A stretch of 32,336 nt of DNA from the NCBI GenBank assembly GCA_946478965.1, contig CAMLDQ010000020.1:1-32336 (forward strand), in the 5' to 3' direction. Within the stretch, counting starts at the first letter, position 1, and every line of letters starts with the position of its first letter. A program made the position numbers and the translations under genes. The notes beneath the pieces are model-generated. The model worked only from the letters and a program-made list of their open reading frames with translations, had not been told where the DNA came from and made no database searches. Below are positions 2,064 through 29,973 of the stretch, piece by piece. The stretch comes from an uncultured Methylobacillus sp. GTDB taxonomy: Bacteria > Pseudomonadota > Gammaproteobacteria > Burkholderiales > Methylophilaceae.

Positions 2064-2095
2064 ATAACGTTTAGTAGACCAAAAGAGGGGTTGAT

Positions 2096-4251: not shown

Positions 4252-4266
4252 AGGAAGGAAACGGAA

Positions 4267-6222: not shown

Positions 6223-6233
6223 GCCGGAAATGC

Positions 6234-6272
6234 AAAGCCGCCGTTCCGATCGATGACCGGAACGGCGGCTTT
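6234..6272. terminator. Bidirectional terminator between convergent lapD and lapC
   Basis: A perfect 14-bp stem (AAAGCCGCCGTTCC pairing with GGAACGGCGGCTTT) surrounds an 11-base loop. The A-tract and T-tract at the stem ends allow function in both directions. It fills most of the 55-base gap between the two convergent stop codons. Confidence 0.92.
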
Positions 6273-6277
6273 ATTAT

Positions 6278-7669: not shown

Positions 7670-9827
7670 GCAGCTTGCCTCCAGACAGGGCTTCCAGGAC
7701 TTGTTCCTTGGGACCATCGGCGATAATGCGGCCGCCATCGACGACGATCAGACGATCCACCAGCGTCAGCATGGACGCTCGGTGTGTCACCAGCAGCAGC
7801 GTCTTGTTTTCCAGATGCTGCGACAGGCGCATTTTCAAGTTCTCCTCGGAGCGGTTGTCGAGGGAGTTGCTGGGTTCGTCCAGCACCAGCAAGACCGGAT
7901 CGAGCAGCAGGGCACGGGCGACGGCGATGGATTGTCGCTGGCCGCCGGAAAGCCCTTCGCCGCGCTCACCGACCGGCATTTCGAATCCTAATGGGTGCCG
8001 ATTGACGAATTCGGTGACGCCGGCGATCTCGGCCGCGCGCAGCATGGCGCGGTCGTCCACATACGGGGCGCCGAAGACGATATTGCTCTTGACCGTGCCG
8101 AAGAACAGGATGGGGTCCTGGGCGACATAGGCAATGTTGCGGCGCAGGTCGGCCGGGTCGATCTGCTGCAGGTCCACACCATCCACCCAGACCGAGCCCG
8201 ATGTGGGCTGGTACAGTCCCATGATGAGTTTTTCGATGGTGGTCTTGCCGGAGCCGATGCGGCCGATGATCCCTACGCGCTCACCTGCGGCGATGCGGAA
8301 TGAAATGTTTTGCAGCGCGGCAACCGGTTGCTGAGGGTAGTTGAAGGTGACGTCCTTGAATTCGATCGACCCCTTGAAGGCCGGGCGATGGACGAAGCTC
8401 TTGCCGGCTTCGCGTTCCAGCGGCAAGGCCATCATGCGATTGATGCCTTCAAGTGCGGCACGTGCATGGTGAAAGCGTGTAATCAGGCCAGCGACCTGGG
8501 ACAGCGGCGCCAGCGCGCGGCCGGTCAGCATGGTGCAGGCGACGAGGGCGCCGACGGTCAGTTCGCGTTCGGCAATCAGGTTGACGCCCACAATGACGAC
8601 GCCGACGCTGGCCATTTGCTGCAGAAAGGTGGCAGCATTGACGTTGGCGGAGGAAAGCAGTCGCGCTTTCAGGCCCAGTTTGCCCAGGTGGCCGATCAGT
8701 TGCTCCCAGCGACGCTGCATCGGCCCTTCGGCCCCGATGGATTTCAGCGTTTCCAACCCCGTCAGGCTTTCGATCAAGGTCGACTGGCGCTGCGACGAGG
8801 TACGGAAGGTTTCCTGGATCACCTTACCCAGGGGTTTCTGCAGCATGAAGGACACGATCAGGATCAAGGGCACCGTGGCAATCGCCGGAAGTGCCGCCAG
8901 GCCACCGATCCAGCCGATGAGAATCAGGAACAGGATCAGGAACGGCAAATCCACCAGGGTGGTGATGGTGGCAGAGGTGATGAATTCGCGAAAGGATTCG
9001 AATTCCTGCAGGCTGCTGGCGAATGCCCCTACCGACAAGGGGCGCGATTCCATACGGATGCCCATTACTTTTTCAAAGATGTTCGCAGACAGGATCACGT
9101 CGATTTTCTTGCCGGCAATATCGATGAAGTAGCCGCGCAAACTGCGCATCACGAAGTCGAAGATGTAAACGACGCCGACCCCGATCGCCAGGACCCACAG
9201 GGTCTCGATCGTATTGTTGGGAACGACGCGGTCGTATACGTTCATGATGAAGAGCGGCATGACCAGCGCGAACAGATTGATCAGCAGAGAGGCTAGCAGC
9301 ACTTCGCTGTAGATTGGCCATGCCATTTTGACCGTGCCCCAGAACCAGTGTTTCGGTTTGGGTATGAAACTCGTTTCGGAGCGCTTGTCGAAGCTGAATG
9401 CTGGTTTGACGAAAATGGCGAAACCGGTATAACGCTCTTCCAGTTCTTTCAGTGCGACCTCGGCTTCACCAGCGCCGGATTCCGGAAACACGACCTTGGC
9501 ATGGTCATCATGGCGTTCCAGCAGGATGCAGGCCTGGCCATCTTCGAGCAACAGCACGGCCGGCAGGGTGAGATTGATGATCTTTTCCAGCGGGCGTTTC
9601 AGGATGTGGGCGCTGATGTCGGCACGGGCTGCGGCGCGGACGAACAGCTCCGGTGTCAGGCGCGAAGCCTCCAGAGGCAGGCCGGCAGTTAGCGACTGCA
9701 GCGAGAACGGCCGGTGCTGCATGCGGGTGAGGAGTACGAGGCAGTTTGCCAGCGGGTCGTCGGGGAGCAAGGCCTCCTTGGGGATAGTCCATGCTTTTTC
9801 GTTATTGCTGCTGCCTTCCGCGGTCAT
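7653..9827 (-). CDS. lapB: LapB, type I secretion ABC transporter (permease-ATPase)
   Basis: The product powers export of the RTX adhesin. The N-terminal ~135 residues look like the C39-peptidase-like domain of RTX exporters, with the catalytic cysteine apparently absent (proline at the aligned place in DDPLANC). These domains bind substrate without cutting it. A six-helix ABC membrane domain (about 160-450) and an ATPase domain with Walker A GRIGSGKTT, signature LSGGQRQ, Walker B LLVLDEPS and the switch histidine (LLVTHR) follow. The ATG at 9827 is preferred over upstream in-frame codons because GAGG sits seven bases before it. That gives 724 residues, the usual length. It is first in an operon with lapC. 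Confidence 0.94.
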   Translation of the reverse strand: MTAEGSSNNEKAWTIPKEALLPDDPLANCLVLLTRMQHRPFSLQSLTAGLPLEASRLTPELFVRAAARADISAHILKRPLEKIINLTLPAVLLLEDGQACILLERHDDHAKVVFPESGAGEAEVALKELEERYTGFAIFVKPAFSFDKRSETSFIPKPKHWFWGTVKMAWPIYSEVLLASLLINLFALVMPLFIMNVYDRVVPNNTIETLWVLAIGVGVVYIFDFVMRSLRGYFIDIAGKKIDVILSANIFEKVMGIRMESRPLSVGAFASSLQEFESFREFITSATITTLVDLPFLILFLILIGWIGGLAALPAIATVPLILIVSFMLQKPLGKVIQETFRTSSQRQSTLIESLTGLETLKSIGAEGPMQRRWEQLIGHLGKLGLKARLLSSANVNAATFLQQMASVGVVIVGVNLIAERELTVGALVACTMLTGRALAPLSQVAGLITRFHHARAALEGINRMMALPLEREAGKSFVHRPAFKGSIEFKDVTFNYPQQPVAALQNISFRIAAGERVGIIGRIGSGKTTIEKLIMGLYQPTSGSVWVDGVDLQQIDPADLRRNIAYVAQDPILFFGTVKSNIVFGAPYVDDRAMLRAAEIAGVTEFVNRHPLGFEMPVGERGEGLSGGQRQSIAVARALLLDPVLLVLDEPSNSLDNRSEENLKMRLSQHLENKTLLLVTHRASMLTLVDRLIVVDGGRIIADGPKEQVLEALSGGKLHVAKN

Positions 9828-9862
9828 TTTTATCCTCATCAGCACATTTGCAAACCGAATGG

Positions 9863-9871
9863 ATTCTAGCA
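9863..9871 (-). promoter_or_regulatory. Candidate extended -10 promoter of lapBC
   Basis: Read on the minus strand this is TGCTAGAAT, a five-of-six -10 hexamer with the extended TG. It lies about 36 bases upstream of the lapB start. No convincing -35 hexamer is seen. It falls in the 112-base gap downstream of uup, where no clear terminator was found, so readthrough from uup also remains possible. Confidence 0.4.
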
Positions 9872-9939
9872 TGCCAAACGCGAGGAATGACGCGCCTTCG
9901 GCAGAAAAAACACCCGCTATTTCATTGAAACGATGACAT

Positions 9940-14102: not shown

Positions 14103-16679
14103 ATGCGCAGGATCGAATGCCTGAAGTGTCGTCAGCATGGAGTCGCGGGCCGATGGGCGCCGCGGGGGGTGCTGATGTGCCCTGAGTCCTCATTCTTGCC
14201 GGAACCGTCCGAATTCAAATGGCTCCAGTCGCTCCCACCGCGTGCGGGGGCCGAAATTGCCGAACGCCTCTTCTCGTTACCCGAATTTTCCGGCTGTTTT
14301 CCGGAGCAGGCGCCGCCCGCGTCTTTGAAGCCGCGCCTGGCGGCTGCATTCGATTGCATGCTGAAAGCCGACCCGTGCCGGGAAGGCGCGACCTGTTTGC
14401 CGCCGGAGCTCGGCAGGCGCGCTTTGCTCTTGGCCTGCCGGCAGTTTCTGATTTCTCACTTGTGCCGCCTTGCCGGGATGCACGCAGGCGATCCCGAGCA
14501 GTTCGCAGCGGCCTGCGGGGTCCTGGCCAATCGGGTGCTGCATGAAATCGGGAGCCTGCCGGATTTGCTTCCGGTTTGCGAATTGTCTGACCGTGCCGTA
14601 CTGCATGCGCGTATCCAGCAAGTGCTGGCGCAGGCCGAACGCAATTCGGTCATGGCCGCTGTCATGGTGGTCGATCCCGATCGCTTCAAGGTCATCAACG
14701 ATGCGGTGGGGTTCGAAGTCGGCGACTGGGTGCTCGCTTTGGTGGCTGAGCGGTTGGCTCGCTGCGTCCGGGCGACAGATATGCTGGCGCGCCACGTTGG
14801 CGACGAGTTCGTGTTGGCGCTGGCCAACGGCGAACAGATCGAGGACCTGGCCCGCGTAGCGCGCGCCGTGCTTGCTGCATTCGTCGAGCCGTTCGAAGTG
14901 GCTGGGCAGCAGCTGACGCTGACGGCCAGCCTGGGTATCAGCGTGTTTCCTCGGGATGGGCAAGACATCCCCACGCTGTTGAGAAATGCCGATTTTGCAA
15001 CGCAACGCGCCAAGGAAGCGGGGGGAAATCGCTTCGAGTTTTTTACTGCAGAGGCAAACGAGGCGGCACAAAAGCGTATGCAGTTGGCGACCGAATTGCG
15101 GCTGGCGCTGGCGCGCAAGCAGTTTGCATTGCATTACCAGCCCCAGGTCGATATCGGCAGCAGGCGCGTGGTGGGGGTGGAGGCCTTGTTGCGTTGGGAG
15201 CATCCGCAACTGGGCCGGGTCTCGCCCGTGGAATTCGTCCCGGTGGCCGAACAGGACGGCCTGATTCTCGACATCGGTGCCTGGGTGCTGAAGACGGCTT
15301 GTGCCCAGGCAACAGCCTGGCAGGCGCGTGGCCTGCCTCCGGTGCGCATGTCTGTCAATCTTTCAGCACGCCATTTTCATGGCGACGGTATTGTCGACCT
15401 GGTCGCGGCAACGCTGCAGGCGAGCGGACTTGAGCCGCGCCACCTGGAGATCGAGGTGACCGAAGGCGTGCTGCTGCAGCACACCGAAGCCTGTATCGCG
15501 AATCTGGGCGCCCTGCGTGCCCTCGGGGTTCACTTCTCGGTGGATGACTTCGGTACCGGCTATTCCAGCCTCAGTTACCTGAAACGATTACCGGTCAATG
15601 CTGTCAAGATAGATCAGTCCTTCGTCAGGCACCTGACGTCGGAGCCTGGCGATGCGGCGCTGGTCAAAGCCGTGATTGCAATGGCGCACAGCCTGGGCCT
15701 GCGTGTGATCGCGGAAGGTGTCGAAACCGAGGGTCAGCTGGTGCAGTTGGCGCGGCTGCATTGCGAAGAAATCCAAGGTTATTATTTCAGCAAGCCGCTG
15801 CCGGCTGAGGAATGCACCCAGTTCCTGCAGGAATCCCATCTTCTGGTATTGCCGCAAAGTGAAGAAGAGGCGGCGGAGCGGGTGCTGCTGCTGGTGGATG
15901 ACGAGGTCAACATCACCAACGCGCTGCGGCGCTTGCTGCGCCAGGATGGCTACCGCATCCTGGTAGCGGACAGCGGCCATGCCGGGTTGGAACTGCTGGC
16001 AACTCATCAGGTCGGCGTCATCCTCTCCGACCAGCGCATGCCGGAGATGACCGGCGTGGAATTCCTGCGGCGGGTCAAGGACCTGTATCCGGATACCATG
16101 CGCATGGTGCTCTCTGGTTATACCGAGCTCAAGTCGGTGACGGACGCCATCAACGAGGGGGCCATCTACAAGTTCATCACCAAGCCGTGGGAGGATGACC
16201 TGCTGCGCGAGCATGTACGTGAAGCCTTCCAGCGTCTTGGCATGAAACAGGAGAACATGCGCCTTTCGGAGGAAATCGCCGAAGCCAACCGCAAGCTGTC
16301 CGAGGTCAACCGGAGACTGGAGCAGCGCGTGGAGGAAAAAACCCGGGAAATCCAGCACAGCCTGCGTGTGCTCAAGGTCTCGCAGGAGGTGCTGGATCAA
16401 TTGCCGGCGGCAGTCGTCGGGGTGGACATGGAAGGCCTGATTGTGATGGCCAACCAGCAGGCGGATGCCCTGTTTGCTGGCGGCGGCGAACCGTTGCTTG
16501 GCTGCGATGCCAGGGAGCGCCTGCCGGCGGTGCTGTGCGCCCGCCTGGACAGCGGGGTGTGCGAGCAGACATTGCGTTTCGACGATGGCCGCCTGATGCA
16601 GGTGATTTGTAGCCAACTGGGCGATAACAGCGTCGCCACGGGCATGGTGCTGGTCGTGTTGCCGTTGAGCGAGGCGTAG
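14103..16679 (+). CDS. GGDEF-EAL-receiver-PAS signalling protein
   Basis: This 858-residue cytoplasmic protein joins c-di-GMP domains to a phosphorelay receiver in an uncommon order. Residues 1-165 are unassigned. The GGDEF domain (about 170-325) reads VGDEF at 232-236 with an intact RATD inhibitory site (223-226). The EAL domain (about 335-585) looks active: EALLRW at 360, DDFGTGYSS at 481 and the KID and EGVE motifs. A receiver (about 595-715) follows, with Asp599/Asp600, phospho-acceptor Asp643 and Lys694 in KPWED. A coiled coil and a C-terminal PAS-like domain (about 765-858) end it. I expect a phosphodiesterase tuned by phosphorylation; cyclase activity is doubtful. The start is uncertain: ATG at 14175 after a G6 run is an alternative. 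HDOD follows after 33 bases. It is the first gene of the operon. Confidence 0.88.
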   Translation: MRRIECLKCRQHGVAGRWAPRGVLMCPESSFLPEPSEFKWLQSLPPRAGAEIAERLFSLPEFSGCFPEQAPPASLKPRLAAAFDCMLKADPCREGATCLPPELGRRALLLACRQFLISHLCRLAGMHAGDPEQFAAACGVLANRVLHEIGSLPDLLPVCELSDRAVLHARIQQVLAQAERNSVMAAVMVVDPDRFKVINDAVGFEVGDWVLALVAERLARCVRATDMLARHVGDEFVLALANGEQIEDLARVARAVLAAFVEPFEVAGQQLTLTASLGISVFPRDGQDIPTLLRNADFATQRAKEAGGNRFEFFTAEANEAAQKRMQLATELRLALARKQFALHYQPQVDIGSRRVVGVEALLRWEHPQLGRVSPVEFVPVAEQDGLILDIGAWVLKTACAQATAWQARGLPPVRMSVNLSARHFHGDGIVDLVAATLQASGLEPRHLEIEVTEGVLLQHTEACIANLGALRALGVHFSVDDFGTGYSSLSYLKRLPVNAVKIDQSFVRHLTSEPGDAALVKAVIAMAHSLGLRVIAEGVETEGQLVQLARLHCEEIQGYYFSKPLPAEECTQFLQESHLLVLPQSEEEAAERVLLLVDDEVNITNALRRLLRQDGYRILVADSGHAGLELLATHQVGVILSDQRMPEMTGVEFLRRVKDLYPDTMRMVLSGYTELKSVTDAINEGAIYKFITKPWEDDLLREHVREAFQRLGMKQENMRLSEEIAEANRKLSEVNRRLEQRVEEKTREIQHSLRVLKVSQEVLDQLPAAVVGVDMEGLIVMANQQADALFAGGGEPLLGCDARERLPAVLCARLDSGVCEQTLRFDDGRLMQVICSQLGDNSVATGMVLVVLPLSEA

Positions 16680-16712
16680 TGATGAAATCCATGCAGAGCA
16701 GAGGAGCGCGAC

Positions 16713-17567
16713 ATGAACGGGCAGCCGCCAGACAATCTTGACAGCATACTGGATCGCGCCCAGAGGCTGCCCTCGCTGCCTGCCGTGGCGATGGATATCC
16801 TGGCTGCTTTCGACAACGACAACCTTGACGTGTCGACCCTGACGGGCAAGATATCGCGCGATCAGGCCATTGTGGCGCGCGTGATGCGTGTCGCCAATTC
16901 CGCGTTTTTCGGCTTGTCCGGCCAGGTGGCCTCGATCCCGGAGGCGATTGCCGTCCTGGGATTCAACAATCTGCGCAGCCTGGTGATCGCCGCCGCCATG
17001 ATGAATGTTTTTCCGCATTTCGATAGCGATTGCGATGGACTGCCATTCTGGCAGCATAGCCTGGGCGTGGCGGCCTGCGCCCGGGTGCTGGCTGCGAAAA
17101 CCGGCGTCAATCCCGAGAGTGCCTTTCTGGCCGGTTTGCTGCATGACATCGGTTGGCTGGTGATGGTGGCTTATCTGCCGGGATCCTACGATCGGGTGCG
17201 CGCCGCGTCGGACGGTTCGCAGATCGAGCAGATTCTGGCAAGCGAGCGCAGCATATACGGCTACGACCACGCCATGCTGGGCGAGAGGATGGTGCGGCGC
17301 TGGCATTTGCCCCCTGCCATCGTCGAAGCGGTCAGCCGCCATCATGCGGCTGATGATGCAGCGCCCGGCGCCAATTTGGTGCAGATTACCTATATCGCCA
17401 ATTTGGTCTCGTTCGAACTGGGAAATGTGTTTGTGGCGGAAAACCTGAATCCGAAATTGAACACGGCGCTGGAAACGCATCTTGGCATCGATGCCCAGGC
17501 GTTTGCGGTCATGCTGCCCGAAATTCAGCAGCAGTATGACGGCGCTATCATGCTTGGCGGCGAATGA
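16713..17567 (+). CDS. HDOD-domain signalling protein
   Basis: The 284-residue protein is almost entirely one HDOD domain, an HD-superfamily fold that usually lacks phosphohydrolase activity and acts as a signalling scaffold. The N-terminal signature LPSLPAVAMDIL, the helix VARVMRVANSAFF and the central HDIGWL (His144, Asp145) are typical. HHAADD resembles the usual later HH motif. A GAGGAG ribosome site lies six bases before the ATG. It sits between the GGDEF-EAL-REC-PAS gene and the first histidine kinase, and the gap to the kinase is only 13 bases. HDOD proteins often occur with c-di-GMP, chemotaxis or pilus genes, which fits here. The partner is not known. Confidence 0.9.
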   Translation: MNGQPPDNLDSILDRAQRLPSLPAVAMDILAAFDNDNLDVSTLTGKISRDQAIVARVMRVANSAFFGLSGQVASIPEAIAVLGFNNLRSLVIAAAMMNVFPHFDSDCDGLPFWQHSLGVAACARVLAAKTGVNPESAFLAGLLHDIGWLVMVAYLPGSYDRVRAASDGSQIEQILASERSIYGYDHAMLGERMVRRWHLPPAIVEAVSRHHAADDAAPGANLVQITYIANLVSFELGNVFVAENLNPKLNTALETHLGIDAQAFAVMLPEIQQQYDGAIMLGGE

Positions 17568-17580
17568 ACGGGAGGTTCCC

Positions 17581-18912
17581 ATGAACGAATCGCAGCAGCC
17601 CACCCCCTTGCCTGGCGGTGCCGACCCGGCGTTAAGCCCCGGCGCGCCGTCGTCCGAAGTCCAGCGCGTGGTCGTGGACGAGCCGCTCGCCAGCATTCTC
17701 GCCTCGCTTGACGATGCCGTGTGGTCGGTATTGCCGGATAATTACCATACGATCTACATGAGTCCGTCCGCCTTGAAGGTCTATGGCCGTGCGGCCGAGG
17801 ACTTCTATAGTCAGCCCAACCTGTGGCTGGATTGCGTCAACCCGAAAGATCGCGAGCGGGTGATGAAGATGCTGGATTCGCTCTACCAGCACAATGTGCT
17901 GGATCTCGATTACCGCGTGGACTGGCCGGACGGTTCCATGCGCTGGGTGCATGACCACGTGCGGCTGATTCGCGATGCCGAAGGCGTGCCGCAACGGCTG
18001 GACGGCATCTCGGTCGATATCACCAAACACAAGGAAGCCGAGCAGGAACTGCAGCGCCGCCACGACGAACTCAAGGAGGCTTACCGGCAGCTCGAAGCAG
18101 CGCAGTCGCAACTGCTGCAATCCGAGAAAATGGCATCCATCGGCCAGCTGGCGGCCGGGGTGGCGCACGAAATCAACAATCCGATCGGCTATGTGTATTC
18201 CAATCTCGGTGCACTGCAGAAATATCTGGACAGCCTGTTCGCGCTGCTGGATGTGTACGAAAAGGCGGAGCCGTTGCTGAACGGGCAGGGCGAAGCGCTG
18301 GCGGCGTTGCAGGCGGCCAAGAAGCGTGCTGACATCGCGTTCCTCAAGGAAGACGTCAGCAGCTTGATGGAAGAGAGCCGTGAGGGCATTACCCGGGTAA
18401 AGAAAATCGTGCAGAACCTCAAGGATTTTTCGCATGTCGGTTCCGACGAGGAATGGCAGTGGTCCAATCTGCGTGAAGGCTTGGACAGCACGCTCAGCAT
18501 CGTCTGGAACGAGCTCAAATACAAGGCCGAGGTGGTCAAGGAATACGGCGATATCCCGGATGTGGAATGCTTGCCTTCACAGCTCAATCAGGTGTTCATG
18601 AACCTGCTGGTCAACGCCGGGCACGCCATCGAGGAAAAAGGCACGATTACCTTGCGTACCGGCGCGGTCGACGGCCGGGCGTGGGTCGAAGTCGAAGATA
18701 CCGGCAAAGGCATTGCACCGGAGCATCTTTCCCAGATCTTCAACCCGTTCTTCACCACCAAACCGGTGGGCAAGGGCACCGGACTGGGCTTGTCCGTTTC
18801 CTACAGCATCATCCAGAAACATCATGGCGAAATCGACGTGCGCAGCGAACCCGGCAAGGGCACTGCATTCCGCGTGACCCTGCCGGTATGTCAGGAAAAA
18901 GGCGATGGCTGA
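17581..18912 (+). CDS. Soluble PAS-domain sensor histidine kinase (first of two)
   Basis: The product is a 443-residue kinase with no transmembrane segment. A PAS/PAC sensor (about 40-155) is followed by a coiled coil, a dimerisation domain with phospho-acceptor His196 in GVAHEINNP, and an ATPase domain. The ATPase has an N-box (Asn345 in LLVNAGHAI), a G1 box (DTGKGIAPEH), an F-box (FNPFFTTKPVGKGTGLGLS) and a G2 box. I chose the ATG at 17581 because GGGAGG precedes it by six bases; an upstream in-frame opening at 17482 lies within the HDOD gene. Its stop overlaps the start of the GTPase gene by eight bases. It has no receiver of its own, so the nearby receivers are the likely partners. The PAS ligand cannot be told from sequence. 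Confidence 0.92.
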   Translation: MNESQQPTPLPGGADPALSPGAPSSEVQRVVVDEPLASILASLDDAVWSVLPDNYHTIYMSPSALKVYGRAAEDFYSQPNLWLDCVNPKDRERVMKMLDSLYQHNVLDLDYRVDWPDGSMRWVHDHVRLIRDAEGVPQRLDGISVDITKHKEAEQELQRRHDELKEAYRQLEAAQSQLLQSEKMASIGQLAAGVAHEINNPIGYVYSNLGALQKYLDSLFALLDVYEKAEPLLNGQGEALAALQAAKKRADIAFLKEDVSSLMEESREGITRVKKIVQNLKDFSHVGSDEEWQWSNLREGLDSTLSIVWNELKYKAEVVKEYGDIPDVECLPSQLNQVFMNLLVNAGHAIEEKGTITLRTGAVDGRAWVEVEDTGKGIAPEHLSQIFNPFFTTKPVGKGTGLGLSVSYSIIQKHHGEIDVRSEPGKGTAFRVTLPVCQEKGDG

Positions 18913-19552
18913 TTACGATGAGGAGGCCGGCCGGCTGACCGTCAAGCTGGTGTATTACGGTCCTGCCATGAGCGGCAAGACCACCAATCTTATGCGCCTG
19001 CATGATCTGCTCACGCCGGAACTGAAGGGGGAAATCATGAGCCTAGAAACGCAGAACGATCGCACCCTGTTCTTCGACCTGCTGCCGCTGGGATTCCGCA
19101 CGCCTTCCGGCCTGCTGGTCAAGTTCAAGCTGTTCACCGTGCCCGGGCAGGTGGCGCACGACGCGACGCGCAAGGCGGTGCTGTCGCGCGCCGATGGCGT
19201 AGTGTTCGTGGCGGATTCGCAGCGTAATCAGGGGGTGAATAACGCCGAAGCGTTTCAGAATCTGGCTGACAACGCTGGCCGGGTGGGGCTGGATTTCGAG
19301 ACGCTGCCGCTGGTAATCCAGTACAACAAACGCGATTTGCCGGACATCTACGATGAGGACGAATTGCGCGCCCGCTGGGGGAGCATGCCATGGCCGCTGA
19401 CTTTTGCCATCGCCCTGGCGGGCAGTGGCGTTCGGGAAACCCTGCAGATGCTGATGAACCAGGTGTATCCAGCCCTGGATTACAGTTTCAGCCTGCAAAT
19501 GGCGCATGGCATGGATCGCGAACATTTTTCCGAGGCCGCGATGGGAGCTTGA
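18905..19552 (+). CDS. MglA-like small Ras-type GTPase
   Basis: The 215-residue protein matches the bacterial MglA family. The P-loop is GPAMSGKT (residues 19-26). The G3 region reads FTVPGQ, as in MglA, rather than the Ras DTAGQ. The segment GVVFVADSQ is highly typical, and the nucleotide-specificity motif NKRD is intact. In Myxococcus MglA-GTP sets cell polarity and directs type IV pilus and gliding machinery; MglB is its activator. No mglB-like gene is visible here. The start overlaps the upstream kinase gene by eight bases, and the next kinase begins one base after its stop, so all three are probably made together. The likely effector is the motor ATPase two genes downstream, but this is inference from gene order. 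Confidence 0.93.
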   Translation: MADYDEEAGRLTVKLVYYGPAMSGKTTNLMRLHDLLTPELKGEIMSLETQNDRTLFFDLLPLGFRTPSGLLVKFKLFTVPGQVAHDATRKAVLSRADGVVFVADSQRNQGVNNAEAFQNLADNAGRVGLDFETLPLVIQYNKRDLPDIYDEDELRARWGSMPWPLTFAIALAGSGVRETLQMLMNQVYPALDYSFSLQMAHGMDREHFSEAAMGA

Positions 19553-19553
19553 C

Positions 19554-20786
19554 ATGCAGGTGCGCCAGCAGCATTTCGACAGCGAATTCACTCTGGATGA
19601 ATTGTTGGCCGCGGTGGCCCGCGAGCCGCTGGCGGAATGCCTGACAGCCGTGCTGGGCGACGCATTCCGCCTGGTGGATGCACGAGGCAAGCGGCTGCTG
19701 GGGCAAGAGGCCTCCTGGAGCGATGCCAGCCGTTGCGAGCTACGTTTCGATATCGAGCCATTGGGCTATCTGGAGGCGCCGAGCGATAAAGCCGGGCAAG
19801 TCCTGGCCTGCGCCGGCCTGCTCGAAATCCTGTTCAAGACCGTTGCACGCTACCTGATGGCCTCGCATCTACACGAGGAAAACGTCAGCGAAAATTACCA
19901 GCGGCTGCAGCAGGAGCATGCCGCGCTGCTCAAGTCCGAACTGCGTTACCGGCAGTTGTCCGAAGAACTCGAAGCGCGCGTGGTGGCACAGGTGGAAACC
20001 ATCCAGAACACCGAACGTCAACTTTATCAGGCCGAGAAAATGGCCTCGGTCGGCCAGTTGGCCGCCGGGGTGGCGCACGAAATCAACAATCCCATGGGAT
20101 TTATCCGCAGCAATCTCGGTGCCGCGCGCAACTACGTGCAAACCTTTGCCGAATTGCAGCCGGCGATCAAGGCCGGTGACGGCAGGCTCACCCGACAAGT
20201 CTGGCAGGAAAACGACCTGGATTTCGTGGTGGGGGATTTCCTCTCTCTGTTGGACGAAAGTATTCTCGGCGCCGATCGGGTGGCACGCATCGTGGCCGAT
20301 TTGAAGGGGTTTTCCGAGATCGATCATGCCGGCGAGCAGGTGTGCGACATCAACGATTGCATTGCCTCGGTCTGTAATGTCGCGGCCTGTCAGATTCCGG
20401 CCGACATCGAGCTGGTCACGACGCTGGGCGATACGCCGCCTATCCGGTGCCGGCCGGGGCAGCTTAACCAGGCCCTGCTGGGCCTGCTGATGAATGCGGT
20501 ACAGGCCGTCAAAGGTGCCGGCGGGCGAGTGGAAATCGCCACGGCGCAGGAGGAGGGTGTGATCCGGCTCGAGGTGCGCGACAACGGCACGGGCATCGCA
20601 CCGGAACATCTATCGCGCATTTTCGATCCGTTTTTCACCACGCGCGAGGTGGGGAAGGGGATTGGCCTGGGATTGACCGTTTGCCGGGATATCGTGGAAG
20701 CGCATCGCGGCACGATCGAAGTGGCCAGTCGCGTGGGGGAAGGCACCTGCTTTACGGTGCGTCTGCCGATTATGGGAGGTGCATGA
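19554..20786 (+). CDS. Soluble sensor histidine kinase (second of two)
   Basis: This 410-residue kinase has an N-terminal ~110-residue domain I do not recognise, then a coiled coil (about 110-155), an H-box with His175 in GVAHEINNP, an N-box (Asn314 in LLMNAVQAV) and ATP-lid motifs (DNGTGIAPEH, FDPFFTTREVGKGIGLGL). The catalytic half closely resembles the first kinase, including a 29-base identical DNA stretch (18154-18182 and 20064-20092). The N-terminus is quite different, so the two should sense different inputs. No membrane segment is seen. The ATG at 19554 follows GGGAG and comes one base after the GTPase stop; an upstream opening at 19506 lies inside the GTPase gene. Its stop overlaps the next start. 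Confidence 0.9.
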   Translation: MQVRQQHFDSEFTLDELLAAVAREPLAECLTAVLGDAFRLVDARGKRLLGQEASWSDASRCELRFDIEPLGYLEAPSDKAGQVLACAGLLEILFKTVARYLMASHLHEENVSENYQRLQQEHAALLKSELRYRQLSEELEARVVAQVETIQNTERQLYQAEKMASVGQLAAGVAHEINNPMGFIRSNLGAARNYVQTFAELQPAIKAGDGRLTRQVWQENDLDFVVGDFLSLLDESILGADRVARIVADLKGFSEIDHAGEQVCDINDCIASVCNVAACQIPADIELVTTLGDTPPIRCRPGQLNQALLGLLMNAVQAVKGAGGRVEIATAQEEGVIRLEVRDNGTGIAPEHLSRIFDPFFTTREVGKGIGLGLTVCRDIVEAHRGTIEVASRVGEGTCFTVRLPIMGGA

Positions 20787-23026
20787 TGGCGTCGGTCTAT
20801 ACCTCGTTGTTCACCGGCGGCGACGCCCCGATCGAGCAAGCAAAGCCTGCCGAGCATGCCGGATACAACATCCTGCTGGTAGACGACGAGCCGAATGTGC
20901 TGAAAGCCTTGCAGCGCGTGTTCCGGCAGGAAAACTACCACATCATGACCGCGGCCGACGGTCAACGGGCGCTGGAGGCCCTCAAAGGCAGGGAATTCCA
21001 CCTGATGATCTCCGATTACATGATGCCGGTCATGAACGGCGCCGAGTTGTTGCGACGCGCCAAGGAAATGCATCCGCAGATGATCCGCATCATGCTGACC
21101 GGCCATGCCGACACCGGCGCGGTGATGGGTGCGGTCAACGAAGGCGCGGTGTATAAGTTTATCCTCAAGCCGTGGAACGATGACGATCTGCGTGTGACTG
21201 TGGCGCTGGCGCTGGAACAGTATGACCTGATGCGCAAGAACGCCCGTTTACAGCGGGAAAATCGCCAGAAAACCCAGGAACTGGCCTCGCTCAGCAAGCT
21301 GACTGTGACCAACCGGAGCCAGCTCGCCATCATGCTCAACAAGCGCAACCTGCTCAACAACCAGCAGGCGCAGGAGCTGCACCGGCTGCAGCAGACGCGC
21401 AAGGAGCCCATCATCAAGCTGCTGCTGGAGCGCGATTGGGTGAGCGAGAAGACCATACGCGACATCCTGCGCCGCGACTTGCTGGTGGAGGAGGTGGCGC
21501 TGGCGGAGTTCCAGGTCGACGCCGCGGTTGCCGCGCTGATACCACACAGTTTCTGCGAGCGGCAATTGGTCGTGCCGCTCAAGCTGGACGGCCGTCGCCT
21601 GATGCTGGCGGTGGCCGACCCCATGGACATGGGATTGATCGATGATTTGCGCTTTGTTTCCGGGCTGGAAATCCAGCCGGTAATGGCTGATGTGGCGGCG
21701 ATCCGGGCCAAGATTGCAGAAGTCTACGGCGAAGCGATGGAGGTCGATTTCAAGGAAATCGAAACGCTGGTCAGCAGCCCTGATCCGTATGAGAGCATCG
21801 AAATCGTCATCGAGGACGACAACGACCAGTCGATAGAAGAGTTGCTGCGCAGTACGGATGAGCCGCCGGCCATCCGGCTGGTGAACTCGGTAATGCTGGA
21901 AGCGATCCGGCTGGGCGCGAGCGACATCCATATCCAGCCGCGCGCCAAGAGCGTGGTGGTGCGCTATCGCATCGACGGCGTGCTGGTGGACAAGATCCAT
22001 ATCCCGCACCATATGCACCAGGCGCTGGTGTCGCGCCTCAAGGTGATGTCGGAACTGGACATCAGCGAGCGCCGTCGCCCGCAGGACGGCCGCATTACCG
22101 TGAAAAGCCCGTTGCGCGTGGTCGATCTGCGCATTTCCACGCTGCCCACCATCAACGGCGAAAAAATCGTCATGCGGCTTCTGGATCGCAACTCCGCGGT
22201 GCACGGCCTGAGCGATCTCGGTCTTTCGCCCAACGACCTGCCCAAGGTGCTGACCATGGTGGACAAGCCGCAGGGCATCATCCTCGCCACCGGGCCGACC
22301 GGCAGCGGCAAGACCACCACGCTGTATTCACTGTTGCAGCACAACGCCACGCCGACCAAGAACTACGTGACCATCGAAGACCCGGTGGAGTATTACCTGG
22401 ACATGGCCGGACAGGTGCTGATCCGCGAAAAGATCGGGCTGGACTTCCCCATGGTGCTGCGCGCCATCCTGCGCCAGGACCCGGATGTGGTGCTGCTGGG
22501 TGAAATCCGTGACCTGGAAACCGCCGAGGTGGCATTCCATGCGGCGCTGACCGGGCATATGGTGTTTTCCACGCTGCATACCAATTCCGCTGTGGCGACC
22601 ATCGCACGTCTGCTGGATCTGGGCCTGAAATCGTATGTGGTGGCCACGGCGATCGAGGGCATCATCGCACAGCGACTGGTGCGCAAGATTTGCGTGCACT
22701 GCCGCGAATCGGCGCCTGCCGACGCCAAATTGCTGGAGCGCATCGGCGGGCCTTTCATCATCGGCGCGCTGCAGTCCGCGATGCATGGCAAGGGCTGCAG
22801 CCATTGCAACAACACCGGCTACCGCGGCCGGTTGGGGATTTATGAAATCCTGATGCCGGACGAGGAAATGCGCGACTTGATCGCGAGCGGCGCCAGCCTG
22901 CTGGAAATATCGCGCATCGCACGCCAGAAGGGGGCGGCCTCGCTGGCCATGGACGCGCTGGAAAAAGTAAATGCCGGTCTCACCACGTTGGAAGAAGTTC
23001 TGCGCGTATTGGGGCCACAACCATGA
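20786..23026 (+). CDS. Receiver domain fused to a PilB/GspE-type motor ATPase
   Basis: The 746-residue fusion starts with a receiver (about 27-140) with Asp33/Asp34, phospho-acceptor Asp77 in ISDYMMP and Lys128 in ILKPW. A coiled coil, a GspE/MshE N-terminal-like domain (about 205-320) and a complete type II secretion / type IV pilus assembly ATPase follow. Walker A is GPTGSGKTT (503-511), Walker B is DVVLLGEIRD with Glu573, and the zinc cysteines Cys636, Cys639, Cys671 and Cys674 mark the PilB/GspE type rather than the retraction ATPase PilT. The N-terminal domain lacks a clear RLG...Q MshEN c-di-GMP motif. GGGAGG lies six bases before the ATG at 20786 (ATG at 20783 is the alternative). No pilin, PilC or secretin gene is nearby, so it must act on machinery encoded elsewhere. 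Confidence 0.92.
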   Translation: MASVYTSLFTGGDAPIEQAKPAEHAGYNILLVDDEPNVLKALQRVFRQENYHIMTAADGQRALEALKGREFHLMISDYMMPVMNGAELLRRAKEMHPQMIRIMLTGHADTGAVMGAVNEGAVYKFILKPWNDDDLRVTVALALEQYDLMRKNARLQRENRQKTQELASLSKLTVTNRSQLAIMLNKRNLLNNQQAQELHRLQQTRKEPIIKLLLERDWVSEKTIRDILRRDLLVEEVALAEFQVDAAVAALIPHSFCERQLVVPLKLDGRRLMLAVADPMDMGLIDDLRFVSGLEIQPVMADVAAIRAKIAEVYGEAMEVDFKEIETLVSSPDPYESIEIVIEDDNDQSIEELLRSTDEPPAIRLVNSVMLEAIRLGASDIHIQPRAKSVVVRYRIDGVLVDKIHIPHHMHQALVSRLKVMSELDISERRRPQDGRITVKSPLRVVDLRISTLPTINGEKIVMRLLDRNSAVHGLSDLGLSPNDLPKVLTMVDKPQGIILATGPTGSGKTTTLYSLLQHNATPTKNYVTIEDPVEYYLDMAGQVLIREKIGLDFPMVLRAILRQDPDVVLLGEIRDLETAEVAFHAALTGHMVFSTLHTNSAVATIARLLDLGLKSYVVATAIEGIIAQRLVRKICVHCRESAPADAKLLERIGGPFIIGALQSAMHGKGCSHCNNTGYRGRLGIYEILMPDEEMRDLIASGASLLEISRIARQKGAASLAMDALEKVNAGLTTLEEVLRVLGPQP

Positions 23027-24357
23027 CACTGGAGCCTTCGATCTTGCCTGAAATGGACACTGGCGCCGCGACCGGCAACCTGCTGTTCGTCGATGACGAA
23101 CCCAATATCCTCTCCGCGCTGCGACGCTTGTTCCGCCCGCTCGGCTACACCGTGTTCCTCGCCAATGGCGGTGCCGAAGGCCTGGAAGTCCTCGCGCGCG
23201 AATCCATCGATCTGGTGATTTCCGACATGCGCATGCCGGAGATGAACGGCGCCGAATTCCTGATGCAGGTGCGCGAGCGATCGCCCGAAACCGTCCGCAT
23301 TCTGCTGACCGGCTATGCCGATATTTCCTCGACCATCGACGCCATCAACCAGGGCCAGATCTATCGTTATATTGCCAAGCCCTGGGAAGACAACGACATC
23401 ACCACCGCCGTGCGCCACGCGCTGGAGCGCAAGCAGCTGGAACGCGAGCGCGTGCGGCTGGAAGCGCTGACGCAGCAGCAGAACGAAGAACTGAAATCGC
23501 TCAACGCTACGCTGGAAGAAAAGGTCAAGGCGCGTACCGAAGAGTTGCGGCAGACCATGGGCTTTCTCGAAGTTGCGCACGAGAAACTGAAAAAGAGCTT
23601 CATCACCTCGATCCAGGTGTTTTCCAGTCTGCTCGAGTTGCGCGAGGGCGAAATGGCCGGCCATTCGCGCCGCGTCGCCGACCTGGGGCGCAGGCTGGCG
23701 TTGCGGATGGGCTTGAGCCAGGTGCAGGCGCAGGAGGTGATGGTGGCCGCGCTGCTGCATGATATCGGCAAGATAGGCCTGCCCGATGCTTTGCTGCAGA
23801 AGCCTTTCGCGACCCTCAACAACGAGGAAAGGCATGCCGTCATCAAGCATCCCGTCGTCGGGCAGTCTGCCTTGATGGCGCTGGAACAGCTGCGCGATGC
23901 CGGCAAGCTGATCCGCAGCCACCACGAGCGCTTTGACGGCATGGGGTATCCGGATGGCTTGCGCGGCGAGGAGATTCCTCTGGGTGCGCGCATTCTGGCG
24001 GTGGCCAACGAATACGATGCGGTGCAGCTCGGACATCTGGTCAGCAAGCGACTCGGCGAGACCGATGCACGGCGTTATATTCAGGAAGGGCGCGGCAAGC
24101 GCTACGACCCCCAGGTGGTCGATGCATTTCTGGCGATGTTGGGCGGTGCGGTCGAGTCCATGCCGGAGCGTGAAATCCTGCTGCATCCGTGCGACCTCAA
24201 GCCGGGCATGGTGCTTGCGCGCGACCTTGTGGTCCGCGATGGTTTGCTGCTGCTGGCTCGGGATTATTTGCTGGATGAGGCGCTGATCGAACAATTACAT
24301 AATTTTGAAAAGACGGACGGGCACCCGCTGACAGTGTACGTCCGCACACCGAGGTGA
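23023..24357 (+). CDS. Receiver-HD-GYP c-di-GMP phosphodiesterase (RpfG-like)
   Basis: The 444-residue response regulator has a receiver (about 15-130; phospho-acceptor Asp68 in ISDMRMPEM, KPWED), a coiled coil (about 130-200) and an HD-GYP domain. The catalytic motifs are present: HSRRVADLG, HDIGKIG (His246, Asp247), KHPVVG, HHERFDGMGYPDGL (GYP at 308-310) and a later NEYDAV in place of the usual DxYDAL. Members of this family degrade c-di-GMP to pGpG or GMP when phosphorylated. A C-terminal ~60 residues (LHPCDLKPGMVLARDL) are common in RpfG relatives. The start overlaps the motor ATPase stop in an ATGA. This gives the operon a second probable phosphodiesterase besides the EAL protein. Confidence 0.92.
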   Translation: MTLEPSILPEMDTGAATGNLLFVDDEPNILSALRRLFRPLGYTVFLANGGAEGLEVLARESIDLVISDMRMPEMNGAEFLMQVRERSPETVRILLTGYADISSTIDAINQGQIYRYIAKPWEDNDITTAVRHALERKQLERERVRLEALTQQQNEELKSLNATLEEKVKARTEELRQTMGFLEVAHEKLKKSFITSIQVFSSLLELREGEMAGHSRRVADLGRRLALRMGLSQVQAQEVMVAALLHDIGKIGLPDALLQKPFATLNNEERHAVIKHPVVGQSALMALEQLRDAGKLIRSHHERFDGMGYPDGLRGEEIPLGARILAVANEYDAVQLGHLVSKRLGETDARRYIQEGRGKRYDPQVVDAFLAMLGGAVESMPEREILLHPCDLKPGMVLARDLVVRDGLLLLARDYLLDEALIEQLHNFEKTDGHPLTVYVRTPR

Positions 24358-24362
24358 CGATC

Positions 24363-24908
24363 ATGACACACATACTGCTGGTAGACGACGAAGAGAACAT
24401 TCTCAAGGCCTTGCGCCGCGCCTTGTCCTACGCGCCCGACGAGAATGCCGAGCGCTATGCCATCGAGACATTTACTTCACCGCAGTTGGCCTTGGTGAGG
24501 GCGCAGGAGGGAGTGCTGTTCGATATCGTGATATCGGACTATCGTATGCCGATGATGGACGGTGTGGCGTTTTTGAAAAGCTTCCGCCAGTACCAGCCGG
24601 ATGCAGTGCGGTTCATCTTGAGTGGCTATGCCGATCTCGATGGCCTGATCGGTGCCATTAACGAAGCGCGGATACATCGCTTCCTTTCCAAGCCGTGGGA
24701 CGATTTCACGTTGCGTGCCGATATCTGCAATGCGCTGAAACTGCGTGCGCTGCAACTCGAAAACCAGCGCCTCGCCGACGAGGTGCGCCAGCAGAAGGGC
24801 ATCATCAGCGCGCAGGAACTGGAGCTGCTGCGTCTGGAAGCCGAAACGCCGGGCATTACCAAAGTGCGGCGAACCCCAGATGGCGGGGTGTTGCTGGACG
24901 ATGATTAA
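24363..24908 (+). CDS. Stand-alone receiver with a C-terminal coiled coil
   Basis: The 181-residue protein has one receiver (residues 1-125; acidic pair in LLVDDEENIL, phospho-acceptor Asp59 in ISDYRMPMMDG, KPWDD near residue 117) and a ~55-residue coiled-coil tail ending in an acidic VLLDDD. No output domain is seen, so it could be a phosphate sink, a shuttle or an adaptor binding the other coiled-coil receivers. A short insertion (SYAPDENAERYAIE) follows the first receiver helix. GAGG eight bases before the ATG at 24363 favours that start over the GTG at 24354, which overlaps the previous stop. It is the last gene of the tight signalling operon. Confidence 0.87.
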   Translation: MTHILLVDDEENILKALRRALSYAPDENAERYAIETFTSPQLALVRAQEGVLFDIVISDYRMPMMDGVAFLKSFRQYQPDAVRFILSGYADLDGLIGAINEARIHRFLSKPWDDFTLRADICNALKLRALQLENQRLADEVRQQKGIISAQELELLRLEAETPGITKVRRTPDGGVLLDDD

Positions 24909-24930
24909 CCGTCAGCCGTGAGTTGCGTGA

Positions 24931-25020
24931 CTGTCGAGAGACGCTCGGCAGCGTGAGCCACGCTTGCGGTTCCACCCAAGGAGCCGGACGACAGAATCGA
25001 AAGTCTGTTTCCCGAAACAG
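24931..25020 (+). other. Possible structured RNA leader before the diguanylate cyclase gene
   Basis: CTGTCG (24931-24936) can close on CGACAG (24989-24994). Inside are a hairpin AGCGTG-AGC-CACGCT (24950-24964) and a second hairpin CGGTTCC/GGAGCCG with one G-U pair (24967-24986). After it comes CTGTTT-CCCG-AAACAG (25005-25020). The layout, one closing stem around hairpins and then a separate hairpin, resembles a leader RNA. It does not match the c-di-GMP-I riboswitch consensus, and no T run follows, so it is not a standard terminator. In GC-rich DNA some pairing is expected by chance. The stretch between the two genes (24909-25107) holds no supported gene. Confidence 0.3.
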
Positions 25021-25107
25021 CACTGCCCTGTGGCTGCGGGTGGAGATCGCTTCCTTCTTGCAGGCGCAACAGGCACAATGGCGCCTGCATCCAAAGAAAA
25101 CTCCCTG

Positions 25108-26277
25108 ATGGGCCTCCTCGATATTCGCACAATGATGGTCATGACGGCCTTGCTCACGCTGCTGCTGTCAGGCCTGCTCTTGCTTGCCAGCCTGCATGCC
25201 GGGAATATCCGCGGGATTCGCCATTGGGCCTTGGCCGAGTTGAGTATTGCTTTTGGGTTGGGGCTGGCCTATACCCAATTGCACCCGCCTGGGGAACCCT
25301 GGGTCATCGTGCTAGGCGCAACCTTGATCATTACGGGCATGAATCTGCAACTGCTCGGCATCCAGGCATTCAGGGGATGGCGTGTCGATGGACGCATGAT
25401 GGCGTTCTCCGTTGCCGTAGTGTTCGCCGGCAGCGTCTGGTTTAGCGTGCTGCATCATGATGTGGCGAATCGTGCCATTATCAATTCGCTGATCATCGGG
25501 CTGGTCAATGCGGCCAGTGCCCGGGCGCTGCTGAGGCGGGTCGAGCCGCCATTGCGCGCCGCCTTCCGCTTCACCGCGGCCACGTTCGCCCTGGTTTCGT
25601 TGCTTTCCTTCGCCCGCGCCATTTATCTGGCGTTTTTCCTGAATGCCGATTACGGGCTCTATTCGCCAATTCCGATCAATCCGGCCAGTTTCTTTTTCAG
25701 TAGCGTTCTGCAATTGTTGCTGACTTTCGGCTTCATGCTGATGATGCATTCCCGTATCGCCGCGGAACTGCAACGGCTTGCCGCGCGGGACAGCCTCACC
25801 GGTGTCATGAACCGGCGCAGCCTGGAGGACCAGTTCGAGCACTTGCGTGCGCTTTACGCCCGCAATGGCGGCGTCATCTCGGTGCTGATGATCGACATCG
25901 ATTGCTTCAAACTGGTCAACGACGAGCATGGGCACCTGGCCGGGGATACGGTATTGCGTGCCTTGGCCGGGCTCGGTGCTTCCCTGATTCGCAAGCAGGA
26001 TTACTTTGCCCGCTACGGTGGCGAGGAGTTTTGCATCCTATTGCCCGACACCATGGAAAAAGAGGCCGCCCAATTGGCCGAGCGGTTGCGGCAGGCCGTG
26101 AAAGGCTGTCCTATCGAACTCGACGGAGCGTCTTATACCGCCACCGTCAGCGTTGGGCTGGCCGATTCCATGACGGTTGGACTGGACTTTTCCGCACTCG
26201 TGGCTGCTGCCGACCAGGCCCTGTATCGCGCGAAGGACGCCGGTCGCAATCGTGTCGTGGCGTTTTCTTCGCTTTGA
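25108..26277 (+). CDS. Membrane-bound diguanylate cyclase (about seven TM helices, GGDEF)
   Basis: The N-terminal ~215 residues form about seven hydrophobic helices with short loops. A short linker and a GGDEF domain (about 225-389) follow. The active-site loop is intact, GGEEF at 304-308, and the inhibitory site RKQD lies at 295-298, exactly five residues upstream. Substrate-binding DxxxFKxxND is present as DIDCFKLVND. It should make c-di-GMP and show product inhibition. The start is uncertain: ATG at 25108 is preferred because the hydrophobic segment begins just after it, but its ribosome site is weak; ATG at 25078 and TTG at 24964 are in frame. It could be fed from the operon upstream or have its own promoter. 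It ends eight bases before the convergent MFS gene. Confidence 0.88.
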   Translation: MGLLDIRTMMVMTALLTLLLSGLLLLASLHAGNIRGIRHWALAELSIAFGLGLAYTQLHPPGEPWVIVLGATLIITGMNLQLLGIQAFRGWRVDGRMMAFSVAVVFAGSVWFSVLHHDVANRAIINSLIIGLVNAASARALLRRVEPPLRAAFRFTAATFALVSLLSFARAIYLAFFLNADYGLYSPIPINPASFFFSSVLQLLLTFGFMLMMHSRIAAELQRLAARDSLTGVMNRRSLEDQFEHLRALYARNGGVISVLMIDIDCFKLVNDEHGHLAGDTVLRALAGLGASLIRKQDYFARYGGEEFCILLPDTMEKEAAQLAERLRQAVKGCPIELDGASYTATVSVGLADSMTVGLDFSALVAAADQALYRAKDAGRNRVVAFSSL

Positions 26278-28233: not shown

Positions 28234-29973
28234 TCAGCCGCGCATTGCCTGCCACATGACGCCGGGCAGACCGCGCCAGCGCGCATCGGCATCCAGCGCG
28301 ACAAGCTGGCGCAGGGTGTTGTGGGCGTTGCGATTGGACGGGAAATATCCGGGCTTGGGGAACATCGTCAGCGGAAAGCGCATCACGGTTTTTTCGATGC
28401 CTTCCAGCATGGGCGTGTTATGCACCCAGCCTCGGCCGCTCTGGATATTCGCCAGTGTCGAACCGGGATAGGCCCCCCATGGCGGCGATCCAAAGGCGAA
28501 GGCCAGCCCCGGAAAGGCATTGACCGCAACCGTGCCGTAGCGCAGGCGCGCGATGGCACGCTCTACCGCGAGTGCCGTGCTCTTGCCGCGCATCAGGCGG
28601 GGATGTACCACGAGCGTCGCTGAAAGCGTGCCCCATAGGCGCTGATTGACGAAATCGACAGCAGCCTCCAGGAATTCCACCGGGTCACGGCTGCCGACCG
28701 AGGTCTCGGCCAGGATGGGGCAGAATGCCTCACGCTGGAACAAAAGCTCATTGGGGCTGTTCGCAGCAAGGCCGGCGGCCAGTGTCCATGGCAGCCGGCC
28801 GTCGCCTGCTGTGCCCATTCGCAGCATATGCTTAGACCCGGTCGTCAAGCGTTCCCACAGCTCGTGAGCCCCGGGATAGTAGCTTTTGCGTGTGGGCGTT
28901 CTGCCCAGCACGCGCTGGAGGTGGCGCAGGAATCCCCGCCGTGGCGCCCATTGTTGCGGCGTGATCAGGACGCGGGCGGCATTGCACAGGAAGCCGGCAT
29001 TCATCATCGCATAGCTGGCGAGTTCCTCGGCCTGGTACGCGAGTTCGCGGTCGCTGTAAGGGCCGGGCACCAGGATCACCGGGGAGACATTGCCGAGCTC
29101 CGAGGTAACGGGCTTGTCGCATTTCGGGCTGCCGAGCTGCTGACGCATGCTGCGCTCCGCCTCCGTGGCACCCCAGACGATGGCATCGTGGGTTCGATCC
29201 GAACCGGTCAGGTGGATTTCGTCTATCCCTGCGTGCTGGGCGAGGTAGCTGCCCGTGTCGGCATCTCCATACGTCACGGCCAGATAACCCTCACGGATGG
29301 CGTCTGCAAAGGCTTGCTCGATGAACGGGCCGAGGTAGTCGTTGACCGGGTTCATCTTGAGCACGCACACCTTGCCTTCGTTGAACATCTTGGTGATGAC
29401 GTCCATCGCGCCGATGGCCGCGATGTTGCCAGCACCGAGTACCAGCACGACGCGTCCGCCATGATTGCCGCCCCGGTAAAAGCTTGCGCGCCGCTGTTCT
29501 ACCGCGCGGGCATCCTCACCGTGCTGCATCCGCACTTCCACCTTGCATTGCCGGAATAGCAGGCCATCGATCGCATTGGCGGGGAACACCTCGACGAGCG
29601 TGCGTGCGTCCGCCGCTTCGCTGATTTTTCCGATGGCGGTGTTGCCGGTTCGATTCAGCGTCTCAAGCTGCTCCCGCACCAAACGCAGGTGGCGGACGAC
29701 GCACCAGGGGCCGGTCGCCCATTCCTCGGCGGCGGACGGGCTGTCGAAGGGGATGCCCTTGGCCCGGCAGCCGGCACGCGCGCTGGCTTCCGCAATGCCG
29801 AGATAGCCCCGCTGCATTGCCGTGGCCAGCGCAATCCGGTCCTGAATCGCAAGCCTTGCGAAACGGCTGGCAGCGGCCCGGACTCTGGCGACGGAGGCAT
29901 CCAGCCGCTGCATCGTGTCGGCAAGTCCGGATTGGGGGCGGTTGTCGAAAAATTCAGAAACTTGATCGTCCAT
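28234..29973 (-). CDS. Divergent aldehyde dehydrogenase superfamily enzyme
   Basis: The 579-residue protein is longer than ordinary aldehyde dehydrogenases (about 480-500). The main catalytic features are visible: the nucleotide-binding region VVLVLGAGNIAAIG with KMNPVN, the general base Glu292 in ELGNVSPV, and the nucleophile Cys330 in GFLCNAARVL. The N-terminal ~130 residues (including EEWATGPWCVVRHLRLV) look unlike classical members and suggest a separate clade. NAD(P)-dependent oxidation of an aldehyde, or the reverse reduction of an acyl donor, is likely; the substrate is unknown. The ATG at 29973 follows AGGAGA by eight bases. It begins an operon with the small secreted protein and is divergent from the TPR/TolB-N gene 92 bases away. 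Confidence 0.85.
   Translation of the reverse strand: MDDQVSEFFDNRPQSGLADTMQRLDASVARVRAAASRFARLAIQDRIALATAMQRGYLGIAEASARAGCRAKGIPFDSPSAAEEWATGPWCVVRHLRLVREQLETLNRTGNTAIGKISEAADARTLVEVFPANAIDGLLFRQCKVEVRMQHGEDARAVEQRRASFYRGGNHGGRVVLVLGAGNIAAIGAMDVITKMFNEGKVCVLKMNPVNDYLGPFIEQAFADAIREGYLAVTYGDADTGSYLAQHAGIDEIHLTGSDRTHDAIVWGATEAERSMRQQLGSPKCDKPVTSELGNVSPVILVPGPYSDRELAYQAEELASYAMMNAGFLCNAARVLITPQQWAPRRGFLRHLQRVLGRTPTRKSYYPGAHELWERLTTGSKHMLRMGTAGDGRLPWTLAAGLAANSPNELLFQREAFCPILAETSVGSRDPVEFLEAAVDFVNQRLWGTLSATLVVHPRLMRGKSTALAVERAIARLRYGTVAVNAFPGLAFAFGSPPWGAYPGSTLANIQSGRGWVHNTPMLEGIEKTVMRFPLTMFPKPGYFPSNRNAHNTLRQLVALDADARWRGLPGVMWQAMRG

Follow-up and report, generated by a model that had tools for sequence, protein, structure and literature searches.

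A recurrent gene triad of an MglA-like GTPase, a histidine kinase, and a receiver-bearing PilB-type ATPase in a Methylobacillus signaling operon

Layout of the signaling operon

A 32,336-nucleotide (nt) stretch of DNA from an uncultured Methylobacillus sp. (contig CAMLDQ010000020.1), hereafter the window, carries a compact operon of signaling genes, three of which encode an MglA-like small GTPase, a soluble histidine kinase, and a PilB-type ATPase with an N-terminal receiver (REC) domain, here called REC-PilB. We found that this triad recurs in the same order in other genomes. The operon consists of eight genes on the plus strand, spanning 14103-24908 (10.8 kb) with intergenic gaps of 33 nt or less, as judged from the open reading frame (ORF) list, the translations, and the junction DNA. 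All nine ORFs of the region, i.e., these eight and one farther downstream, were present and their named domains were matched by Pfam, with the PAS domain of g1 below the cut-off; the ORFs, junctions, and Pfam matches thus agree with the gene number, spacing, and domains put forward in an original prediction for this DNA.

The core genes are g4 (18905..19552), Arf/MglA-like by Pfam and recognized as the GTPase by its motifs and a structure match; g5 (19554..20786), the soluble kinase, assigned by Pfam and alignment; and g6 (20783..23026), the REC-MshEN-T2SSE ATPase REC-PilB, assigned by Pfam and motifs. Upstream are three accessory genes: g1 (14103..16679; GGDEF-EAL-REC-(PAS), by Pfam and motifs), g2 (16713..17567; an HDOD protein, by Pfam), and g3 (17581..18912; a PAS histidine kinase, the second kinase of the operon, by Pfam and its HEINN phospho-acceptor motif). 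Downstream are two more, g7 (23023..24357), a REC-HD-GYP response regulator of the NosR family with intact HD and GYP motifs, and g8, a lone REC by Pfam (24354..24908, with GTG at 24354 or ATG at 24363 as its start). The junctions are gaps of 33 nt (g1/g2), 13 nt (g2/g3), and 1 nt (g4/g5), overlaps of 8 nt (g3/g4) and 4 nt (g5/g6 and g6/g7), and either an overlap of 4 nt or a gap of 5 nt at g7/g8; for g3, g5, and g6, better starts were placed inside the listed ORFs, at 17581, 19554, and 20783, respectively. Because g1 retains its EAL and DDFGTG motifs and has VGDEF in place of GGDEF, it probably acts as a phosphodiesterase and carries a receiver that can be phosphorylated. Promoter and terminator scans returned signals at or below shuffled expectation.

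Conservation of the three-gene core

A GTPase alignment scanned over genome contigs yielded at least 567 confirmed stretches, of which the best 80 loci were analyzed; as top matches of one search, many of them from metagenome-assembled genomes (MAGs), these are non-independent. A same-strand histidine kinase followed the GTPase in all 80 loci, and in every one of them g5 outscored g3. REC-PilB came next after the kinase in 79, the remaining contig (L044) stopping inside the kinase; the ATPase was truncated by contig ends in several loci, and in L015 receiver-like genes lie in between. Many genes begin with a four-base overlap of the preceding stop (offset -3), suggestive of translational coupling. 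Judged from record titles, the loci belong mostly to Beta- or Gammaproteobacteria or to unnamed Proteobacteria, with a minority of three deltaproteobacterial-type titles (L028, L038, and L059) and one Polarisedimenticolaceae (L029).

We also used two even samples, 398 genomes from the phylum of genome G001 and 274 from its class, with G001 present in both; two to three first-look candidates per genome were scored for REC-PilB and up to 7-10 for the GTPase. In the phylum sample, the GTPase scored above 290 bits in five genomes, with the next match at 86 bits, and REC-PilB orthologues (E 1e-130 or better) were found in four genomes, all among these five. In the class sample, seven genomes had the GTPase at 225 bits or more (next match, 69 bits), and the six with REC-PilB were all among the seven. 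Pooled, the samples gave 11 genomes with the GTPase and 9 of these with REC-PilB, and all nine showed the order GTPase-kinase-REC-PilB; the corresponding Fisher P, about 1e-18, is rough since the sample overlap was estimated. Altogether, the results from the 80 loci and the even samples bear out a conserved neighborhood, on which the original prediction had been staked beforehand, and indicate that the order of the triad recurs more than by chance.

Two genomes carried the GTPase without REC-PilB. In G411 (L088), the GTPase and kinase are followed by a 1069-amino-acid (aa) protein (5607-8816) that reads by eye as REC-PAS-GGDEF-EAL-REC, possibly an output swapped in behind the same GTPase and kinase; the idea that this genome lacks pili was dismissed, as it encodes a canonical PilB scoring 787 bits. 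In G458 (L108, 9364-10143), a decayed triad GTPase stands alone, without kinase or motor neighbors, and no canonical PilB over the cut-off was found in that genome. Among PLSDB plasmids, none matched REC-PilB over 80% of its length at E 1e-120. We found no published account of the triad in the open PMC literature, with subscription papers and supplements outside the scope of the search; the passages on GTPases and on type IV pili in a Dechloromonas genome paper show no such operon and leave PilB unmentioned.

The remaining genes of the operon are optional companions of the triad. Relatives of each were counted, at thresholds of our choosing, near the triad in the 49 of the 80 loci that have 8 kb on both sides: 36 loci had a further kinase, 33 a REC-HD-GYP relative, 30 a lone REC, 21 GGDEF-EAL-REC (counted within 9 kb), and 19 HDOD. 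In 9 of the 49 loci the triad stands with none of these companions, which makes it the minimal unit; bare triads occur in Zoogloea ramigera (L072), Hahella ganghwensis (L071), Janthinobacterium fluminis (L062), and Desulfogranum mediterraneum (L059). In 42 of the 80 loci, the nearest match on the upstream side of the GTPase was a lone REC, which in relatives is often the gene immediately preceding it. Gene order varies: the window has REC-HD-GYP and REC after REC-PilB, but most relatives have them ahead of the GTPase. Ten neighbor proteins analyzed with Pfam include PAS or GAF kinases, one Cache match below the cut-off, and a REC-PAS protein. The proposal that the whole signaling set forms a unit therefore holds for the constant three-gene core and not for the optional genes around it.

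It is not supported for the membrane diguanylate cyclase g9 (25108-26277, likely starting at 25108; GGEEF intact), which lies 199 nt past g8. Of the 80 loci, only two (L024 and L035) carry a near full-length relative, which lies 4.6-4.7 kb downstream of the GTPase; none of the 49 loci with long flanks has one, and g9 was therefore left out of the unit, although it may be co-transcribed with the operon in this organism.

Properties of the GTPase, the kinases, and the motor

The GTPase g4 has the motifs GPAMSGKT (G1), TVPGQ with Q82 (G3), and NKRD (G4), along with an Arg finger at R53 (R53-T54); R53, TVPG, and NKRD are invariant in 28 of 28 aligned GTPases, and Q82 is kept in at least 90%. The nearest solved structures are MglA chains of the Myxococcus xanthus type (E 7.8e-45), and the nearest named GTPase, at 82% identity, comes from a Methylotenera MAG. 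The 81 triad GTPases group together as a single clade with respect to five more distant GTPases (local support, 0.85). Four of these five (66-147 bits; L090, L091, L099/L109, and L100/L110) had no triad neighbors within the fetched 9-15 kb, and the contig of the fifth (L089) stops about 0.5 kb downstream.

An Arg beside the G2 Thr, TVPGQ in G3, and NKxD in G4 place g4 in Group 1 MglA as defined in the relevant passages of PMC4316618, according to which the neighborhoods of Group 1 MglA genes vary widely; the triad GTPase, by contrast, stands in fixed linkage with a kinase and REC-PilB. The likeness to MglA/MglB covers the GTPase sequence, the Arg finger, TVPGQ, and NKRD, together with a link to type IV pilus motors in M. 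xanthus. Unlike that system, the triad has no adjacent mglB and does not constitute an MglA/MglB module. In a scan of 22 window ORFs, no roadblock (mglB), pilus structural, or FIST domain was reported, in line with the expectation that mglB and pilus genes are missing beside the operon. Six of 28 triad genomes contain the roadblock domain PF03259 and the other 22 yielded no hit, and by contig position none of these roadblock genes lies beside the triad; in G006 and G019, the roadblock gene has a second MglA-like gene as its neighbor. Canonical PilB over the cut-off was detected in 25 of the 28 triad genomes and in eight of eight further ones (33 of 36), compared with 191 of 274 in the class sample (rough P 0.003), so most triad genomes encode a separate canonical PilB. 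As many of the triad genomes are MAGs of unstated completeness, absences from them are soft.

The kinase g5 comprises an N-terminal domain (residues ~1-76) that matched no Pfam family, a long helix (77-199), and a catalytic core, with HEINN, the motif common to both window kinases, at 175. In an alignment of 71 rows (the window kinase and 70 of the 76 full-length kinases from the loci), H175, N314, D343, and the G-box glycines are invariant; both kinases of the window are intact, as predicted. Against NF038348 (T2SS_HK; cut-off, 450), g3 scored 354 bits, its best NCBIfam match, the accessory kinases 349-395, and g5 238, and therefore no family name was assigned. A scan of viral contigs with the kinase as query returned matches to relatives of its catalytic part. 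The receiver of REC-PilB conserves D34, D78, T106, and K129 in 71 of 71 sequences, as expected of a phosphorylatable receiver, and the other three window receivers, read by eye, keep the phospho-Asp and Lys. With 40-48% identity to each other, the four receivers are, as had been proposed, all phosphorylatable and of one related type.

REC-PilB, in which Walker A and B, the His box, and two CxxC motifs are intact, shares these motifs and the MshEN-T2SSE architecture with canonical PilB/MshE ATPases, and differs from them in its N-terminal receiver, in forming its own clade, in having no pilus genes adjoining it in the window, and in lacking the MshEN motif for cyclic di-GMP (c-di-GMP), the last a property shared by 13 of 14 canonical PilB. 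The g6 protein scored 572.1 bits against TIGR02538 (type IV-A PilB; cut-off, 675.65) and 547.8 bits against TIGR02533 (GspE; cut-off, 630.25), under the cut-off in both cases. In a tree that left out L168 and L173, the 71 REC-PilB sequences grouped together, to the exclusion of 15 other PilB-type ATPases (stem, 0.86; local support, 0.80).

The MshEN pattern used here consists of 24-residue RLGxx... motifs in the relaxed form described in passages of PMC5013675, and it matched both controls, a Geobacter PilB stretch and L173. No REC-PilB among 71 contained it, and the R and G of motif II were absent from all 71. This disfavors a direct c-di-GMP route to the motor, which the original prediction had allowed for, and we regard direct gating of REC-PilB by c-di-GMP as unlikely on these sequences; the same passages state that less perfect motifs can still bind c-di-GMP and that perfect ones are perhaps unneeded. 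Among 17 other ATPases of the triad genomes, the relaxed motif was present in 1 of 14 canonical PilB and in 2 of 3 other PilB-type ATPases. Because 13 of the 14 canonical PilB are also without it, the loss is not special to REC-PilB, and it does not establish that phosphorylation replaced control by c-di-GMP. One of the other ATPases, L173 of the triad genome G400, has both MshEN motifs, which implies that pilus-type motors with at least two kinds of gating coexist in this genome.

Two known systems resemble parts of the module. Actinobacterial conservons (CvnABCD) likewise join a histidine kinase and an MglA-family GTPase in one operon; as described in passages of PMC4316618, their kinase is a membrane protein, they encode CvnC and a roadblock protein but no response regulator, and in their Group 2 GTPase Thr replaces the Arg finger and G3 reads GTPGQ. 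In the triad, the motifs are those of Group 1, no membrane part is annotated in the kinase, and the response regulator is a motor. The NosP-NosK-NosR system, according to the parts of PMC12570481 that describe it, uses a HEINN kinase without a recognized sensor domain, NosK, which is controlled by an auxiliary protein encoded in the same operon and phosphorylates a REC-HD-GYP partner. Like NosK, g5 has HEINN and no recognized sensor domain, and g7 passes the NosR-family model NF053512 with 587.8 bits (cut-off, 400), with HD-GYP motifs that are intact in g7 and degenerate in Burkholderia pseudomallei NosR (PMC12570481, same passages); in the window, however, the GTPase takes the place of NosP, the FIST-domain protein absent from the 22 ORFs scanned. 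The module was consequently filed under neither system, NosP-NosK-NosR being ruled out by the missing FIST protein and the conservons by the Group 1 motifs and the missing roadblock gene. Elsewhere, FIST proteins were found in 17 of 28 triad genomes and within 10 kb of the triad in two, where NosP-like genes lie 7-9 kb away (L050 in G021 and L040 in G020).

A candidate GTPase-kinase-motor circuit

We infer that the GTPase tunes the kinase and that the kinase phosphorylates REC-PilB, thereby gating a second type IVa extension motor, with the other receivers coupling the signal to c-di-GMP removal; we hold this tentatively, its chance of being right as a whole falling slightly short of even. By this proposal, g4 would be the signal-carrying partner of g5, a soluble kinase with no recognized ligand domain, and would dock on its N-terminal domain or long helix, shifting the balance of kinase and phosphatase activities. 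The kinase would then phosphorylate the receiver of the adjacent ATPase g6, and the phosphorylated receiver would gate assembly or activity of that ATPase, which would equip the cell with a second, conditional motor for extending type IVa pili, the pilus machine itself being encoded elsewhere. The g3 kinase and the related receivers on g1 (EAL), g7 (HD-GYP), and g8 (REC) may tie the same signal to the removal of c-di-GMP. NosP/NosK/NosR may serve as a working analogy, with the GTPase in the place of NosP and the pilus motor as the constant response regulator. Across 70 sequences, GTPase divergence tracked the kinase (partial r 0.29 for the N-terminal domain and 0.30 for the core) more than the ATPase (0.07) or MshEN (-0.02), which weakly favors action of the GTPase on the kinase.

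The GTPase could alternatively act on the motor, as a polarity factor that brings REC-PilB to the pole or the pilus base, with the kinase setting the receiver independently. M. xanthus offers precedents, as SofG positions PilB and PilT (passages of PMC4316618) and MglA stimulates pilus formation (PMC7519303), and the triad GTPase shares the Group 1 motifs of those proteins. We nevertheless consider this unlikely, since the ATPase and MshEN show the lowest correlation with GTPase divergence (weak evidence), the 22 ORFs scanned include no roadblock gene, and G411 retains the GTPase and kinase without REC-PilB.

Other readings concern what the motor would drive. The near-equal scores of g6 against the PilB and GspE models, both below the cut-off, and the separate clade of REC-PilB would suit an ATPase of type II secretion or another pseudopilus machine rather than of type IVa pili; with the PilB model outscoring GspE and canonical type IVa PilB enriched in triad genomes, a one-sided comparison that counted PilB alone, we find this improbable. 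We give still less credence to REC-PilB being a signaling ATPase that controls the matrix or c-di-GMP and does not extend filaments: PMC5544727 reports M. xanthus PilB as a signaling protein for exopolysaccharide, the neighboring genes encode c-di-GMP enzymes, and in G411 a GGDEF-EAL-REC protein stands in the place of REC-PilB, yet the motor motifs of REC-PilB are kept and canonical PilB co-occurs in triad genomes.

A bolder extension of the proposed circuit is that the N-terminal domain of g5 is a dedicated reader of the GTPase, perhaps a GTPase-activating protein, that replaces MglB. The module would then be a direct GTPase-to-histidine-kinase switch with a pilus motor as response regulator, distributed across Beta- and Gammaproteobacteria plus a few lineages of deltaproteobacterial type; we judge this to be on the doubtful side. 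If the circuit operates as proposed, GTPase state, His-Asp phosphorylation, and c-di-GMP would join at a pilus motor that is itself the response regulator. The fixed linkage of three genes makes it testable how a Group 1 MglA works without MglB and why a second PilB is kept in many genomes, and the bare triads in named strains make the genetics practical.

About 4 kb from the signaling operon, at 38-9872, Pfam identified a Lap-type adhesin export locus encoding an RTX-repeat protein, a TolC-like OEP, a LapG-like C93 protease, LapD, HlyD, and an ABC transporter; it is plausible that this locus is a second reader of the c-di-GMP set by the EAL and HD-GYP enzymes of the operon. On the minus strand at 28234-29973, the sole match of a 579-aa protein is a weak one to aldehyde dehydrogenase in its central part, and we take the protein to be possibly of the acyl-CoA reductase type.

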